Shown here one piece after another: positions 2,506 through 11,567 of a DNA stretch of 64,000 nt. Where the stretch lies: assembly GCA_022538095.1 (NCBI GenBank), contig JAKYXN010000005.1, positions 62,001 to 126,000 of the forward strand, given 5' to 3'. The first letter of the stretch is position 1. Each line of letters begins with the position of its first letter. The position numbers were made by a program, and so were the translations under genes. The notes under the pieces were generated by a model. That model was given only the letters and a program-made list of their open reading frames with translations. It did no database searches and had not been told where the DNA came from. The stretch comes from Puniceicoccaceae bacterium K14 (GTDB lineage: Bacteria > Verrucomicrobiota > Verrucomicrobiia > Opitutales > Opitutaceae).

Positions 2506-3647
2506 TATGAGACAGGTGAGGTTGTAGCCTTGCGGCTCTTAAGGCGATCAATCCACGGCTTCAGTTGTTGAGGCAGACCAACAAGCCCGTTAGGCATAAA
2601 GAGCACCGTAAAAATGAAAATGGCTCCTAAAATAATCAGCCAAGAATCCGGAGCAGCTCTCAAAAAGAAACTTTTCAATACACTCACAACAACGGCTCCT
2701 AAAACGGGGCCGAACTTTGTTCCTCTCCCTCCAAAAGCTACCCAAACTACAACATCGAGTGACTTAGCTGGCGTCATTTCATTTGCGTTAATTCCTCCAA
2801 CTTGAGGAACATACAAAGCGCCTGCCGCTCCAGCGATCATTGCGCAAACCGTAAAAATCAACAATTTGTAAGAAGTCGTTGAATACCCAGAAAATCGTAT
2901 CCGATTCTCACTATCTCTGATCGCCTGTTGAACCTTTCCGAACTTAGTTTTTAAAACCCAAGCAACCAAAAGGTAAACAGAAAGCATTAATAAAACGCTT
3001 CCAATAAACAGCCAACGTTGAGTCGACGCTGAGTCCACATCTGCCCCGAAAATTTCCTTAAAATCGTTCAGGCCATTATTGCCTCCAAATAAAATGTAAG
3101 ACTGACCAAACAGTTCGAGATTGTTCTTAAAAAACAAAAGCATTAACGCATAAGTTAAAGCCTGCGTAATGATGGAAAAATAAACCCCCTTAATCCGAGA
3201 GCGAAATACCAATATCCCAAAAATCAAAGCAACGACACCTGGAATTGCCATTGCGGCGAAAACCGCAAATGCTCCATACTCAAACGGTGCCCAATACCAC
3301 GGTAATTCCGTGTATCCTTGGAAGTCCATAAACACTGGCAACGGCGTATTATACACTTCGTCAATACCGATATGCAACACCAGGTACATTCCGAAGGCAT
3401 ACGCCCCCAAAGCGAAAAATAGACTTTGGCACAAGCAGAGTAGCCCAGTGTAACCCCAGAGAATATTTAGGCTCATCGCCAAAACAGCATACGTTACATA
3501 CTTCCCCCAAAGTGAAAGTTGAAACGAGGATACATGTAAAAATGAATCAGGTGAAGTCAGGGCATTCAGCATTGGTAACAAAAACACCAATACGAGCGCA
3601 CCAATGAGAAACCCTCTAAACTCAATTTTATTATCAAATATGTTCAT
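2505..3647 (-). CDS. urtC: Urea ABC transporter permease UrtC
   Basis: An integral membrane permease of the LivM family, 380 residues with about ten hydrophobic segments. Family features seen are the stretch [20 protein letters not shown] near residues 64-83 and, in the C-terminal half, [19 protein letters not shown] and [15 protein letters not shown]. It forms the channel with UrtB. The start ATG lies about 90 bases after the urtB stop, the largest gap in the operon, and the gene overlaps urtD by one base. Length is normal. Confidence 0.94.
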
Positions 3648-7732: not shown

Positions 7733-8230
7733 ATGAAGCGAACCAAAGAGCTCCTTAAAAAACTGGACAAAGAGGACTTCAATACGGACGAACTTCACTC
7801 AGCAATTTGCCTCGACATCTCAGATAATCTAGGAGCCGATCTCGTAAGCCTGTGGAGTTTCGATAGCGAACTCAGCCAAATCGAATGTCTCTTTTGCCTG
7901 GATACAACATCGAATGAATCCTCCTCAGCCCAAGTCCTAAAGCGAAACGACTTTCCCACATATTTCAGTTACATCGTCGAGGACAATGTCGTCTGCGCTC
8001 CAAATGCACGAACTCATTTCGCAACTAAAGAACTCACTGAAAAATACTTCAAACCCAACGGGATCGTCTCCCTCTTGGACTTTATTCTACAAAAAGACTT
8101 CAAGCCAAGCGGGATAATTTGCTGCGAAGCTCGCAAATCTGAAATCGATTGGACAGTTGCCCATCGCACCTATTTACGTTCGATCGCTTCCCTCATCTCC
8201 TTCCGGTTTGACATTATCAAGAACAGCTAA
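7733..8230 (+). CDS. Stand-alone GAF-domain protein inside the urease operon
   Basis: A 165-residue protein consisting essentially of one GAF domain. A short helical lead (residues 1-25) is followed by DISDNLGADLVSLWSFDSE, VLKRNDFPTYFSYIVEDNVV, NARTHFATKELTEKYFKPNG, and SGIICCEARKSEIDWTVAHR. This order closely matches the N-terminal GAF sensors of hybrid histidine kinases and diguanylate cyclases. There is no kinase, GGDEF, DNA-binding or membrane segment, so any output must come through a partner. The ligand is unknown. It lies 25 bases after ureB and 34 before ureC on the same strand, so it is almost certainly co-transcribed with urease and could modulate the enzyme or its maturation. That role is inference. 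Confidence 0.85.
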   Translation: MKRTKELLKKLDKEDFNTDELHSAICLDISDNLGADLVSLWSFDSELSQIECLFCLDTTSNESSSAQVLKRNDFPTYFSYIVEDNVVCAPNARTHFATKELTEKYFKPNGIVSLLDFILQKDFKPSGIICCEARKSEIDWTVAHRTYLRSIASLISFRFDIIKNS

Positions 8231-9999: not shown

Positions 10000-10449
10000 A
10001 TGCCGGGATCTCAGCAAATAAAGCACATATCCGGACACATACACCCATCGGATACAAACAGCAAAAAAAGTATTTTCCTAAAAGTCGATCGACGCAAATT
10101 GGCCAAACGTAGATGGCGAGGAGAAGCGGAAAACGGAGAAGCATTTGGGTTTGACCTAGGTCACCCGCTTACGGATTCAGACGCCTTCTACGAAGACGAA
10201 ACCTCAATTTATAGAATTCGGCAAGAAGCCGAAGCCGTATTGAAAATTCCCTTTTCTGAAATGAAACAAGCTGCTTACTACGGATGGATGATTGGCAACC
10301 TCCACTTCTCGGCAGCTTTCGATGACGATTGCGTCATAGCGGAAAATGACCCCGCAGTCCGTCAAATGCTAGAACGCAACCACATCCCATTCGAAGATAC
10401 AAATCGCGTCTTTCGCCCCACCATCGTTTCCCACGGCCACAGCCATTAG
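10000..10449 (+). CDS. ureE: Urease accessory protein UreE (nickel chaperone)
   Basis: A 149-residue metallochaperone that passes Ni2+ to the UreG/UreF/UreD complex. The N-terminal half is a peptide-binding domain (KKSIFLKVDRRKLAKRRWRG) and the second half is ferredoxin-like (AAYYGWMIGNLHFSA, MLERNHIPFEDTNRVFRP). It ends in a short His-rich tail, SHGHSH, that can bind nickel. The ATG follows the ureC stop after one base. Immediately after its own stop begins a 30-base terminal inverted repeat of an apparent insertion. Confidence 0.95.
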   Translation: MPGSQQIKHISGHIHPSDTNSKKSIFLKVDRRKLAKRRWRGEAENGEAFGFDLGHPLTDSDAFYEDETSIYRIRQEAEAVLKIPFSEMKQAAYYGWMIGNLHFSAAFDDDCVIAENDPAVRQMLERNHIPFEDTNRVFRPTIVSHGHSH

Positions 10450-10881
10450 AAGGATTGAGTTGTGAGGAGAGAGTAGTGAACATGAGCGGATCGCAACCTC
10501 AAATAAAGGAGAGATCTTTTGATTTCTCAATCCGTATTGTTAAGCTTTGCCAGTCTTTAGAAAACGATTCTCGAATTTCTCAAACCTTGGCAACTCAACT
10601 CTTACGCTCCGGTACATCAATTGGAGCAAATGTTGAAGAGGCAAATGGTAGTCAGAGCAAAGCAGATTTCACCGCAAAAATGTATATTGCCTGCAAAGAG
10701 GCACGCGAAACAAATTATTGGTTACGATTGTTAGTCGCAACCGAGTTGGTTGCAGAAAACAAGCTAGCTCCTTTAGTCGATGAATCAAATCATATTGTCG
10801 CTATTCTAACTGCGATAACTAAAACCTCACGCACCAACCGCTAACTCCAACTCACCATTCACTCCTCACCACTCACTCCTT
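10450..10881. mobile_element. Possible insertion cassette: four-helix-bundle gene flanked by 30-base imperfect inverted repeats
   Basis: Bases 10450-10479 and the reverse complement of 10852-10881 match at 25 of 30 positions, with the shared core AAGGA-TGAGT-GTGAGGAG. The left repeat starts on the base after the ureE stop. The right repeat ends 20 bases before the ureF ATG. Only the four-helix-bundle gene lies between them. No transposase and no obvious target duplication are visible. Confidence 0.6.
10482..10844 (+). CDS. Four-helix-bundle protein (S23 / 23S rRNA intervening-sequence protein family)
   Basis: A protein of 120 residues belonging to the four-helix-bundle family first seen in 23S rRNA intervening sequences. 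Typical motifs are FDFSIRIVKLCQSL, LATQLLRSGTSIGANVEEAN, QSKADFTAKMYIACKEARET, and YWLRLLVATELV. I chose the ATG preceded by GAGGAGAG, since the longer frame starts with TTG at 10455 inside the left repeat. The molecular function is unknown; family members form homo-oligomers and are often found in variable insertions. It has no known part in urease maturation and lies between ureE and ureF within an inverted-repeat frame. Confidence 0.88.
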   Translation: MSGSQPQIKERSFDFSIRIVKLCQSLENDSRISQTLATQLLRSGTSIGANVEEANGSQSKADFTAKMYIACKEARETNYWLRLLVATELVAENKLAPLVDESNHIVAILTAITKTSRTNR

Positions 10882-10901
10882 CAACTCCCTGGCTTACCCA
10901 T

Positions 10902-11567
10902 ATGCTACAGACCGTTGACCCGCTCTTTCCGATCGGATCATACGCTCATTCTTATGGCTTAGAGGAGCTCGTCCAGCTTGACCGAGTGAAAGATCCTGAA
11001 AGCCTGCAGCAATATATAGACAGCATTCTTTTCCCAAATTTAGAGCTATTCGAACTCCCGTATCTAAGATTCCTTTACGAAATAGCCCACACTGAAAATT
11101 GGGGAGAAATCAGTATTCTCGACCAGGAGATCGGAGCCGCCAAATTGACTAAGGAAATTCGCAATGCGAGCTCATCACAAGGGCAACAACGCCTGCGGAT
11201 TTTGCGAAAACTACGGCCTTGTTCGGAATTCGAAAAGCTTCAAGAACTTAAATTATCCAAAGAAGTGGCTCCTCATCACCTTACTGTCAATGCTATCGAA
11301 AACTCCATTCTCCAAACACCTCTACTACCCACGCTTTCAGCATGGACCTACCAAGCGCTTGCCGCTCCTTGTTCTGCGTCGTTGAAACTATTTAGAATCG
11401 GACAAGAAGGGGCACAACAAGTACTCACACAATCAATACAAAAAATCGAAAATGTCGTTGAAAAATCGCTCGAAATCGAGCGAGACCACGCTGGTTGCTT
11501 CAACCCCCTACTAGACATCGCTTCAGCCCGCCACGAACAAGCATTCTCACGACTTTTCATTTCGTAA
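10902..11567 (+). CDS. ureF: Urease accessory protein UreF, N-terminus probably trimmed
   Basis: A 221-residue all-helical GTPase-regulating chaperone of the UreDFG complex. The diagnostic motif LQTVDPLFPIGSYAHSYGLE begins at residue 2, and DHAGCFNPLLDIASARHEQA closes the protein. Codons just upstream of the ATG read WLTH, which continues the usual UreF N-terminal pattern WLxxLLQ. No ATG, GTG or TTG start occurs between the preceding stop (10842) and the ATG at 10902. The native start was therefore probably lost when the upstream cassette inserted. No Shine-Dalgarno sequence is visible. The core is intact, so function is likely retained. Confidence 0.93.
   Translation: MLQTVDPLFPIGSYAHSYGLEELVQLDRVKDPESLQQYIDSILFPNLELFELPYLRFLYEIAHTENWGEISILDQEIGAAKLTKEIRNASSSQGQQRLRILRKLRPCSEFEKLQELKLSKEVAPHHLTVNAIENSILQTPLLPTLSAWTYQALAAPCSASLKLFRIGQEGAQQVLTQSIQKIENVVEKSLEIERDHAGCFNPLLDIASARHEQAFSRLFIS

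Follow-up and report, generated by a model that had tools for sequence, protein, structure and literature searches.

A probable intervening-sequence-type S23 cassette at the start of ureF in the urease operon of Puniceicoccaceae bacterium K14

Anatomy of the ureE-ureF junction

In the urease operon of Puniceicoccaceae bacterium K14, a small gene of the S23 type lies between ureE and ureF and is enclosed by two short sequences that mirror each other. Within the window, i.e., the whole stretch of 64,000 nucleotides that was analysed, the ureE stop, one arm, the S23 gene, the mirror arm and the ureF ATG follow one another with little DNA between them (numbers beginning with L and G below are our designations for loci and genomes):

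10000-10449, + strand: ureE, the upstream host gene; stop TAG at 10447-10449; PF05194 match (E 6e-11), UreE NCBIfam models below their cut-offs
10449-10479, + strand: left arm, made of degenerate heptamers in tandem (GTGAGGA/GTGAGTG type), with 26/31 positions pairing with the right arm; lag-7 identity 0.58
10482-10844, + strand: S23 (four-helix-bundle) gene, 120 aa from the ATG, stop at 10842-10844, TTG at 10455 as alternative start; PF05635, TIGR02436, 2rld
10852-10882, - strand: right arm, a mirror-image heptamer array that pairs with the left arm and is like the array 3′ of the S23 gene of strain DG1235 (L135)
10890-10901, + strand: W-L-T-H codons in the ureF frame; W-L-P in L016, L017 and L019, absent from L018
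10902-11567, + strand: ureF (PF01730, E 3e-26), its current start probably an internal Met by comparison with relatives

The assignment of the S23 gene is supported by matches to PF05635 (E 2e-22; 79.7 bits, curated cut-off 33.8) and TIGR02436 (E 9e-28; 96.7 bits, curated cut-off 24). Family searches returned only S23-type models, plus two models of hypothetical proteins below cut-off, and a sequence search identified PDB 2rld (E 8e-25) as a relative of solved structure. A profile built from 18 S23 proteins also picked up PDB 2gsc (XCC0516).

An imperfect inverted repeat bracketing the S23 gene between ureE and ureF had been described in an earlier note on this DNA, and it was recovered here with a length of 31 bp, in which 26 of 31 columns pair between the left arm and the reverse complement of the right arm; the latter stops 19 bases short of the ureF ATG. 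A default-settings repeat search of the window listed no inverted pair. When 3150 equal-offset pairs of the window were scored (mean 6.6, sd 1.3), the arm-pair score of 21 was reached only at offsets 10420 and 10440, both of which cover the arm pair, and the next-best pair scored 15. Compared with shuffles, the arms are weakly 7-periodic (p 0.009 for the left arm; lag-7 identity 0.62, p 0.004 for the right), and this periodicity stays under the threshold of the array scan. The predicted RNA fold of 10440-10910 beats 100 of 100 shuffles (z -5.6). No promoter-like site and no Rfam match were found in the cassette region, and terminator-like sites numbered 1 vs 1.0 expected.

Of 115 genomes, 38 proved to contain ureF, and 30 of these loci were read, the own genome being included in both counts. 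A motif scan of the 30 loci (about 1.5 kb on each side) placed an S23 gene at the window's locus only, a match in L024 being taken as chance, which supports the earlier reading of the S23 gene as an insertion. In the comparison of start codons, 27 relatives were located and two loci (L038, L041) were not placed. The codon corresponding to the first Met of the window's ureF is ATG in two relatives (L017, L040), TTG in two (L020, L031) and none of ATG, GTG or TTG in the other 23. The four closest ureF relatives show 54-60% identity, and an in-frame ATG lies 15 codons upstream of the window-Met codon in L016, 8 codons in L018 and 15 codons in L019. Judged from these frames, the ureF genes of L016, L018 and L019, three of these four relatives, must start upstream of the window's Met. 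The ureF of L017, which has the Met in common with the window and GTG/TTG at -8/-6, may start at the same position as that of the window. The 19 open codons upstream of the window's ureF ATG contain no ATG, GTG or TTG; the earlier observation of in-frame W-L-T-H codons with no start left was thereby reproduced, and these codons probably remain from the N-terminus of the ancestral ureF. Among the loci compared there was no close cassette-free relative of the window site, and it appears likely that the insertion cost ureF its original start region.

Inverted heptamer arrays in related genomes

A set of 92 S23 loci was compiled, comprising the two of the own genome and, from related genomes, 90 of the highest-scoring places among the matches listed; it is not a random sample. 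A motif parser handled 87 of them, leaving out L054, L071, L105, L112 and L121, of which L071 had strong arms. The inverted-arm score of the 87 loci averaged 19.4 vs 9.05 for 779 pairs from neighbouring DNA (control maximum 16), with 57 loci above the control maximum and 30 at 16 or less. Flank pairs taken across different S23 loci gave a mean of 9.2, about 1% of them scoring above 22, and the direct orientation a mean of 8.8. In both S23 flanks identity was 0.41 at lag 7, 0.38 at lag 14 and 0.25-0.30 at other lags; the 7-nt period was absent 120-300 nt from the gene and inside it (87 loci). The heptamer unit varies among loci and sometimes measures 8 nt. What the earlier note had taken for a fixed 30-base terminal repeat is therefore better described as arrays of 7-nt (sometimes 8-nt) units differing between loci, and the GTGAGGAG core proposed around other S23-family genes was not borne out, the arm units differing among loci. 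Likewise, a search of the genome for other copies of the window repeat with GTGAGGAGNGAGNRG (at most one mismatch) yielded 21 hits vs 19 for the reversed control.

A second set comprised 40 S23 loci from named genomes, found with the window's protein. Lag-7 identity was 0.405/0.390 in their flanks, and arms scored above 16 in 21 loci and 16 or less in 19; the former belonged to Opitutaceae and other Verrucomicrobia, Proteobacteria, Bacteroidetes and relatives, and Terriglobia records. The S23 proteins of L135-L142, 67-78% identical to that of the window, are encoded in other gene contexts, most of them, as read by eye, with GTGA-containing flank heptamers. In strain DG1235 (L135) the S23 gene lies in another operon, its product is 78% identical to that of the window and its 3′ array is similar to the window's right arm; the arm on the 5′ side of that gene is weak, with a score of 12. 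The following gene junction of DG1235, from about position 4155 of L135, holds a heptamer array, and no S23 ORF was seen at this place; the array is open in the frame of the downstream gene and would read as a repeated PLTTHYS-like peptide. In three genomes (L138-L140) the S23 cassette has an SNF2/helicase-type frame on one side and a DUF4391 frame on the other, with arms that end or extend the neighbouring frames, a context that may be a defence operon.

The third set held 37 S23 loci, 32 from the Lysobacteraceae family and five from two other genomes; four of the 37 repeat loci of the 40-locus set. Arms scored 16 or less in 26 of the 37; mirrored arms above 16 were present in 10 of the 32 Lysobacteraceae-family loci and missing from 22, several of these loci having 5′ arrays without a mirror. 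GGGAAT-type arms were found in L246, L273, L275 and L279, read by eye as accB-accC junctions of genomes with many GGGAATC hits. The second S23 gene of the own genome (C296; region L001 819-2053) stands between Cas4 and Cas1 genes and has an arm score of only 10; AAATCTG/AGATTTC-type repeats occur at several junctions of this Cas4/Cas1 region. Gene names were taken from Pfam matches (livH, cas4/cas1, gyrB/gyrA, pheS, gatA/gatB, hemC, ilvC, SNF2/DUF4391), read partly by eye (livJ, pheT) or wholly by eye (accB/accC, carA/carB).

Comparison of orthologous sites showed that the two arms of one copy co-evolve. In 16 orthologous-site groups (67 loci, near-duplicates removed), the 5′ arm pairs better with the 3′ arm of its own copy than with the 3′ arms of orthologues, the summed own-copy score being 1394.5 vs 1162 ± 31.8 (0/20000 permutations), where equal scores for own and orthologous arms are expected if arms change independently. 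Selection on an RNA stem through G-U pairs was looked for and gained no support: 92 G-U-compatible mismatches were counted vs 166 of the A-C type (93 loci), and since cross-paired arms are similarly skewed, the skew appears to be compositional. Because arm mismatches do not favour G-U pairs, arm matching may be maintained on DNA. The S23 protein of relatives was found to be under purifying selection by codon comparison, with dN/dS not exceeding 0.15 in 11 of the 12 pairs and the twelfth pair saturated. A conserved-frame test, confined to sites common to two or more loci and with its baseline from a plain ORF caller, found S23 flanked on both sides by genes of its own direction at 15 of 16 conserved sites and by two genes of the opposite direction at the remaining one; with the plain ORF caller itself, neighbours were same-same in 38 of 83 cases, no excess over 45%.

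Heptamer arrays are also found apart from S23 genes. In 800 kb of genome G029, 44 strong arrays were detected at lag 7 and 13 at lag 14, vs 0-7 at eight other lags. Its 14 best-scoring inverted array pairs, ranked by a pairing score without control, comprise 13 spaced 26-64 nt apart, too near for an S23 gene, and one at 674 nt. Several different 7-nt units are present in this one genome (L205-L244), namely GTGACGA, GTAGCGA, TTAACGC, AAATCTC and others. The 431 kb of the own genome searched, window included, held no array at the 21/28 threshold, and one further hairpin with the window's heptamer unit was found in this genome (L005).

Without regard to phylogeny, heptamer arrays are over-represented in the S23-bearing genomes of two families. 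Among 198 genomes of the Lysobacteraceae family, S23 was present in 38 of 46 with at least 10 GGGAATC hits vs 46 of the 152 others (p 4e-10, phylogeny ignored). With at least 20 hits, 36 genomes had S23 and seven did not, numbers for which the arms of S23 itself do not account; eight genomes of this family had at least 10 hits and no S23. In the Bacteroidota family of G315 (195 genomes), where two heptamer arrays were searched for, S23 was present in 66 of the 67 genomes in which one or the other gave a hit vs 84 of 128 (p 2e-8, phylogeny ignored), low array counts in these tests possibly being the arms of S23 itself, and in 30 of 31 with at least five hits vs 120 of 164 (p 0.002, phylogeny likewise ignored). 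S23 copy number in this family was 7.6 in genomes with at least three array hits and 3.4 in the rest. A second pattern, meant as a reversed control there, is itself a heptamer array and gave hits in 36 of the 195 genomes, all 36 of which contain S23.

Empty sites and copies at different sites

Several genomes carry S23 with matched arms at a livJ-livH-type junction. Gap lengths were obtained from 17 of 30 livH loci (13 gave none); seven gaps measured 454-488 nt, about as long as a cassette, and ten measured 2-208 nt. S23-less sites of this type without arms are L178, L192, L201 and L204 (gaps of 50, 22, 2 and 27 nt), and the S23-less junctions L186 and L188 retain array-like stretches. Since the four short empty sites have no arms, the arms arrive together with the S23 gene, and remnants of them can stay behind.

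Genome G079 contains two copies, L046 and L075, that are 92.7% identical over 453 nt and have unrelated flanks. Their likeness ends on the right at the outer end of the arm and on the left inside arrays of unequal length, and no target-site duplication is evident by eye. A third cassette copy of G079 (L326) is internally deleted. On a contig that also holds an intact copy, a degenerate S23 cassette whose arms are of the AAGGCAC type lies just past hemC (L313, about 2726-3197). For cassettes at gyrB-gyrA, pheS-pheT and gatA-gatB, all of the 38 cross-site pairs align, mostly over 340-440 nt, and none of the matches extends more than 36 nt beyond the S23 gene on its upstream side or 48 nt on its downstream side. 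These alignments suggest that the S23 gene and its repeats travel jointly as one small genetic element; the claim that S23 genes move as small units outside rRNA finds its support in the G079 copies and in this three-junction family. S23 protein identity averages 67% within one site and 33% between sites, and because inheritance within a site is vertical (in 46 of 50 cases the nearest S23 is one of the same site), such movement is rare. Recent movement was also sought from similar S23 pairs, and the pairs listed (at least 71) aligned along most of the stretch, i.e., represented the same sites.

Relation to rRNA intervening sequences and other explanations

According to the accessible parts of a study on Coxiella burnetii (PMC4990558), the function and origin of intervening sequences (IVS) were unclear more than 25 years after their discovery and S23 proteins were without known function. 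The 23S rRNA IVS of this species is described there as an element of 428-444 nt with one S23 ORF, terminal inverted repeats forming a 28-bp stem and tandem heptameric repeats immediately 5′ of the S23 start; rRNA IVS with S23 are excised by RNase III at the stem, and the Coxiella S23p is suggested to be decaying and not made in vivo. As far as that description goes, the window cassette resembles the Coxiella IVS in its terminal inverted repeats around an S23 ORF and in heptamers beside the S23 start, which are clear in relatives and weak in the window. Unlike rRNA IVS, it sits between ureE and ureF and not in an rRNA gene, and is in this respect IVS-like; it further departs from the Coxiella element, on the same partial basis, in its operon host, in the purifying selection on the S23 of relatives and in arrays that also occur elsewhere in the genomes of relatives.

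Several other systems share traits with these cassettes. Xanthomonas GGGAATC heptamer arrays are often convergent inverted pairs, with 70 and 75 cases in two genomes, and the GGGAAT-type arms of L246, L273, L275 and L279 resemble them, whereas the accessible text of that paper does not tie the arrays to S23 or to a mobile unit (PMC4692102). Like the second S23 gene of the own genome, 18 S23 (23S_rRNA_IVP) genes have been reported from cas loci, where the available portion of the source treats them as a CRISPR-Cas-associated function and does not mention flanking arrays (PMC3936711). Excerpts of two further papers report S23 ORFs in rRNA insertions of CPR bacteria (PMC11270868) and describe Avd of diversity-generating retroelements as a four-helix bundle homologous to S23 (PMC10053308). 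Among the matches listed in a literature search (titles and abstract starts, with subscription papers mostly outside), none joins S23 outside rRNA with inverted heptamer arrays. REP sequences and REP-associated tyrosine transposases combine dispersed short hairpins with a gene flanked by the same arms. S23 cassettes are similar to these in outline and differ in their protein, which in the family searches matched S23-type models and, below cut-off, the two hypothetical-protein models, and in having arms of a variable heptamer unit. With MITEs they share a likeness between sites that is bounded by the arms (L046/L075; 38/38 cross-site pairs), but not a common terminal repeat, the arm unit varying among copies.

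We consider it rather probable that the feature in the window is an intervening-sequence-type S23 cassette in an mRNA operon that probably replaced the start region of ureF, and the cassette is probably of the same kind as the elements interrupting rRNA genes. Such an element, about 430 bp long, would be a hairpin with inverted arrays of tandem 7-nt repeats for arms and the S23 gene, which codes for a four-helix bundle, in its loop. It would have entered the ureE-ureF junction in sense orientation, probably displacing the ureF start region, with S23 presumably translated from the operon mRNA and the paired arms forming a stem that might be cut by RNase III, as in 23S rRNA intervening sequences. 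The S23 protein, a relative of the retroelement protein Avd, would work on the heptamer arrays when the elements spread or are maintained and may itself be their acting part, and hairpins lacking S23 could be internally deleted derivatives of cassettes. Points that weigh against this reading are the S23 loci with arm scores of 16 or less in all three sets, the array-like stretches retained at L186 and L188, arm mismatches without a G-U-compatible excess, the lack of an evident target-site duplication in L046/L075, the eight array-rich Lysobacteraceae-family genomes without S23, the 431 kb of the own genome free of arrays at 21/28, the rarity of movement and co-occurrence tests that leave phylogeny aside. 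Extended beyond the window, S23 with inverted heptamer arrays might constitute one unrecognised class of bacterial mobile elements, spread over several phyla, in which the arrays would be built, matched and spread by an Avd-related four-helix-bundle protein that handles nucleic acids, and not by a transposase; gene-bearing cassettes would be the full elements, short hairpins their deleted derivatives, and 23S rRNA IVS copies that landed in rRNA operons. This extension is offered tentatively, as a possibility with less than an even chance of being right.

A different account assigns S23 the role of a passenger: heptamer arrays grown by slippage would fold into hairpins, template switching would keep their arms matched and host recombination would move an S23 gene trapped between them. 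The frequency of S23-free hairpins in G029 (44 lag-7 arrays in 800 kb, 13 of the 14 best pairs 26-64 nt apart), the co-evolution of arms without a wobble signal and the eight array-rich Lysobacteraceae-family genomes without S23 all agree with it. However, S23 is under purifying selection, the arrays go with its presence in two families and with its copy number in one, and likeness across sites ends in the arms, so that we regard this account as doubtful. If the cassette were instead a domesticated device for mRNA processing, with arms kept for an RNase III-cut stem that uncouples upstream from downstream genes and with any mobility ancient and irrelevant, the sense orientation at 15 of 16 conserved junctions and the strong predicted fold (z -5.6) would be readily understood, as would the excision of rRNA intervening sequences with S23 by RNase III reported in the accessible text of PMC4990558. 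Arm mismatches without an excess of G-U-compatible ones, copies in G079 that are 92.7% identical and the patchy presence of cassettes among relatives make this unlikely.

Inverted repeats at both ends, and units at different sites that are alike as far as the arms, would also suit a MITE-like non-autonomous DNA transposon with 30-base terminal inverted repeats recognised by a transposase in trans. This is very improbable in view of arm sequences that differ between copies and change in concert, the lack of an evident target duplication in L046/L075 and an exact repeat that is not multi-copy in the own genome. Chance or low-complexity DNA as the source of the inverted repeat, which the low complexity of the arms might suggest, has a negligible probability, considering that only offsets over the repeat reach its score and that most sampled S23 loci have the same anatomy.

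Should operon-borne S23 genes be the same element as rRNA IVS, many comparative cases (empty sites, cross-site copies, arrays) are at hand, and direct tests of mobility, of array upkeep and of RNA processing become possible away from the ribosome. S23 elements could then account for part of the heptamer arrays of bacteria. Caution is advisable with S23 genes in cas and other operons, which may be insertions rather than components of the respective systems. In the window, a 165-aa ORF at 7733-8230 (+ strand), with no Pfam or NCBIfam match at E 0.001, lies between the ureB and ureC frames as a second extra gene of the same urease operon.
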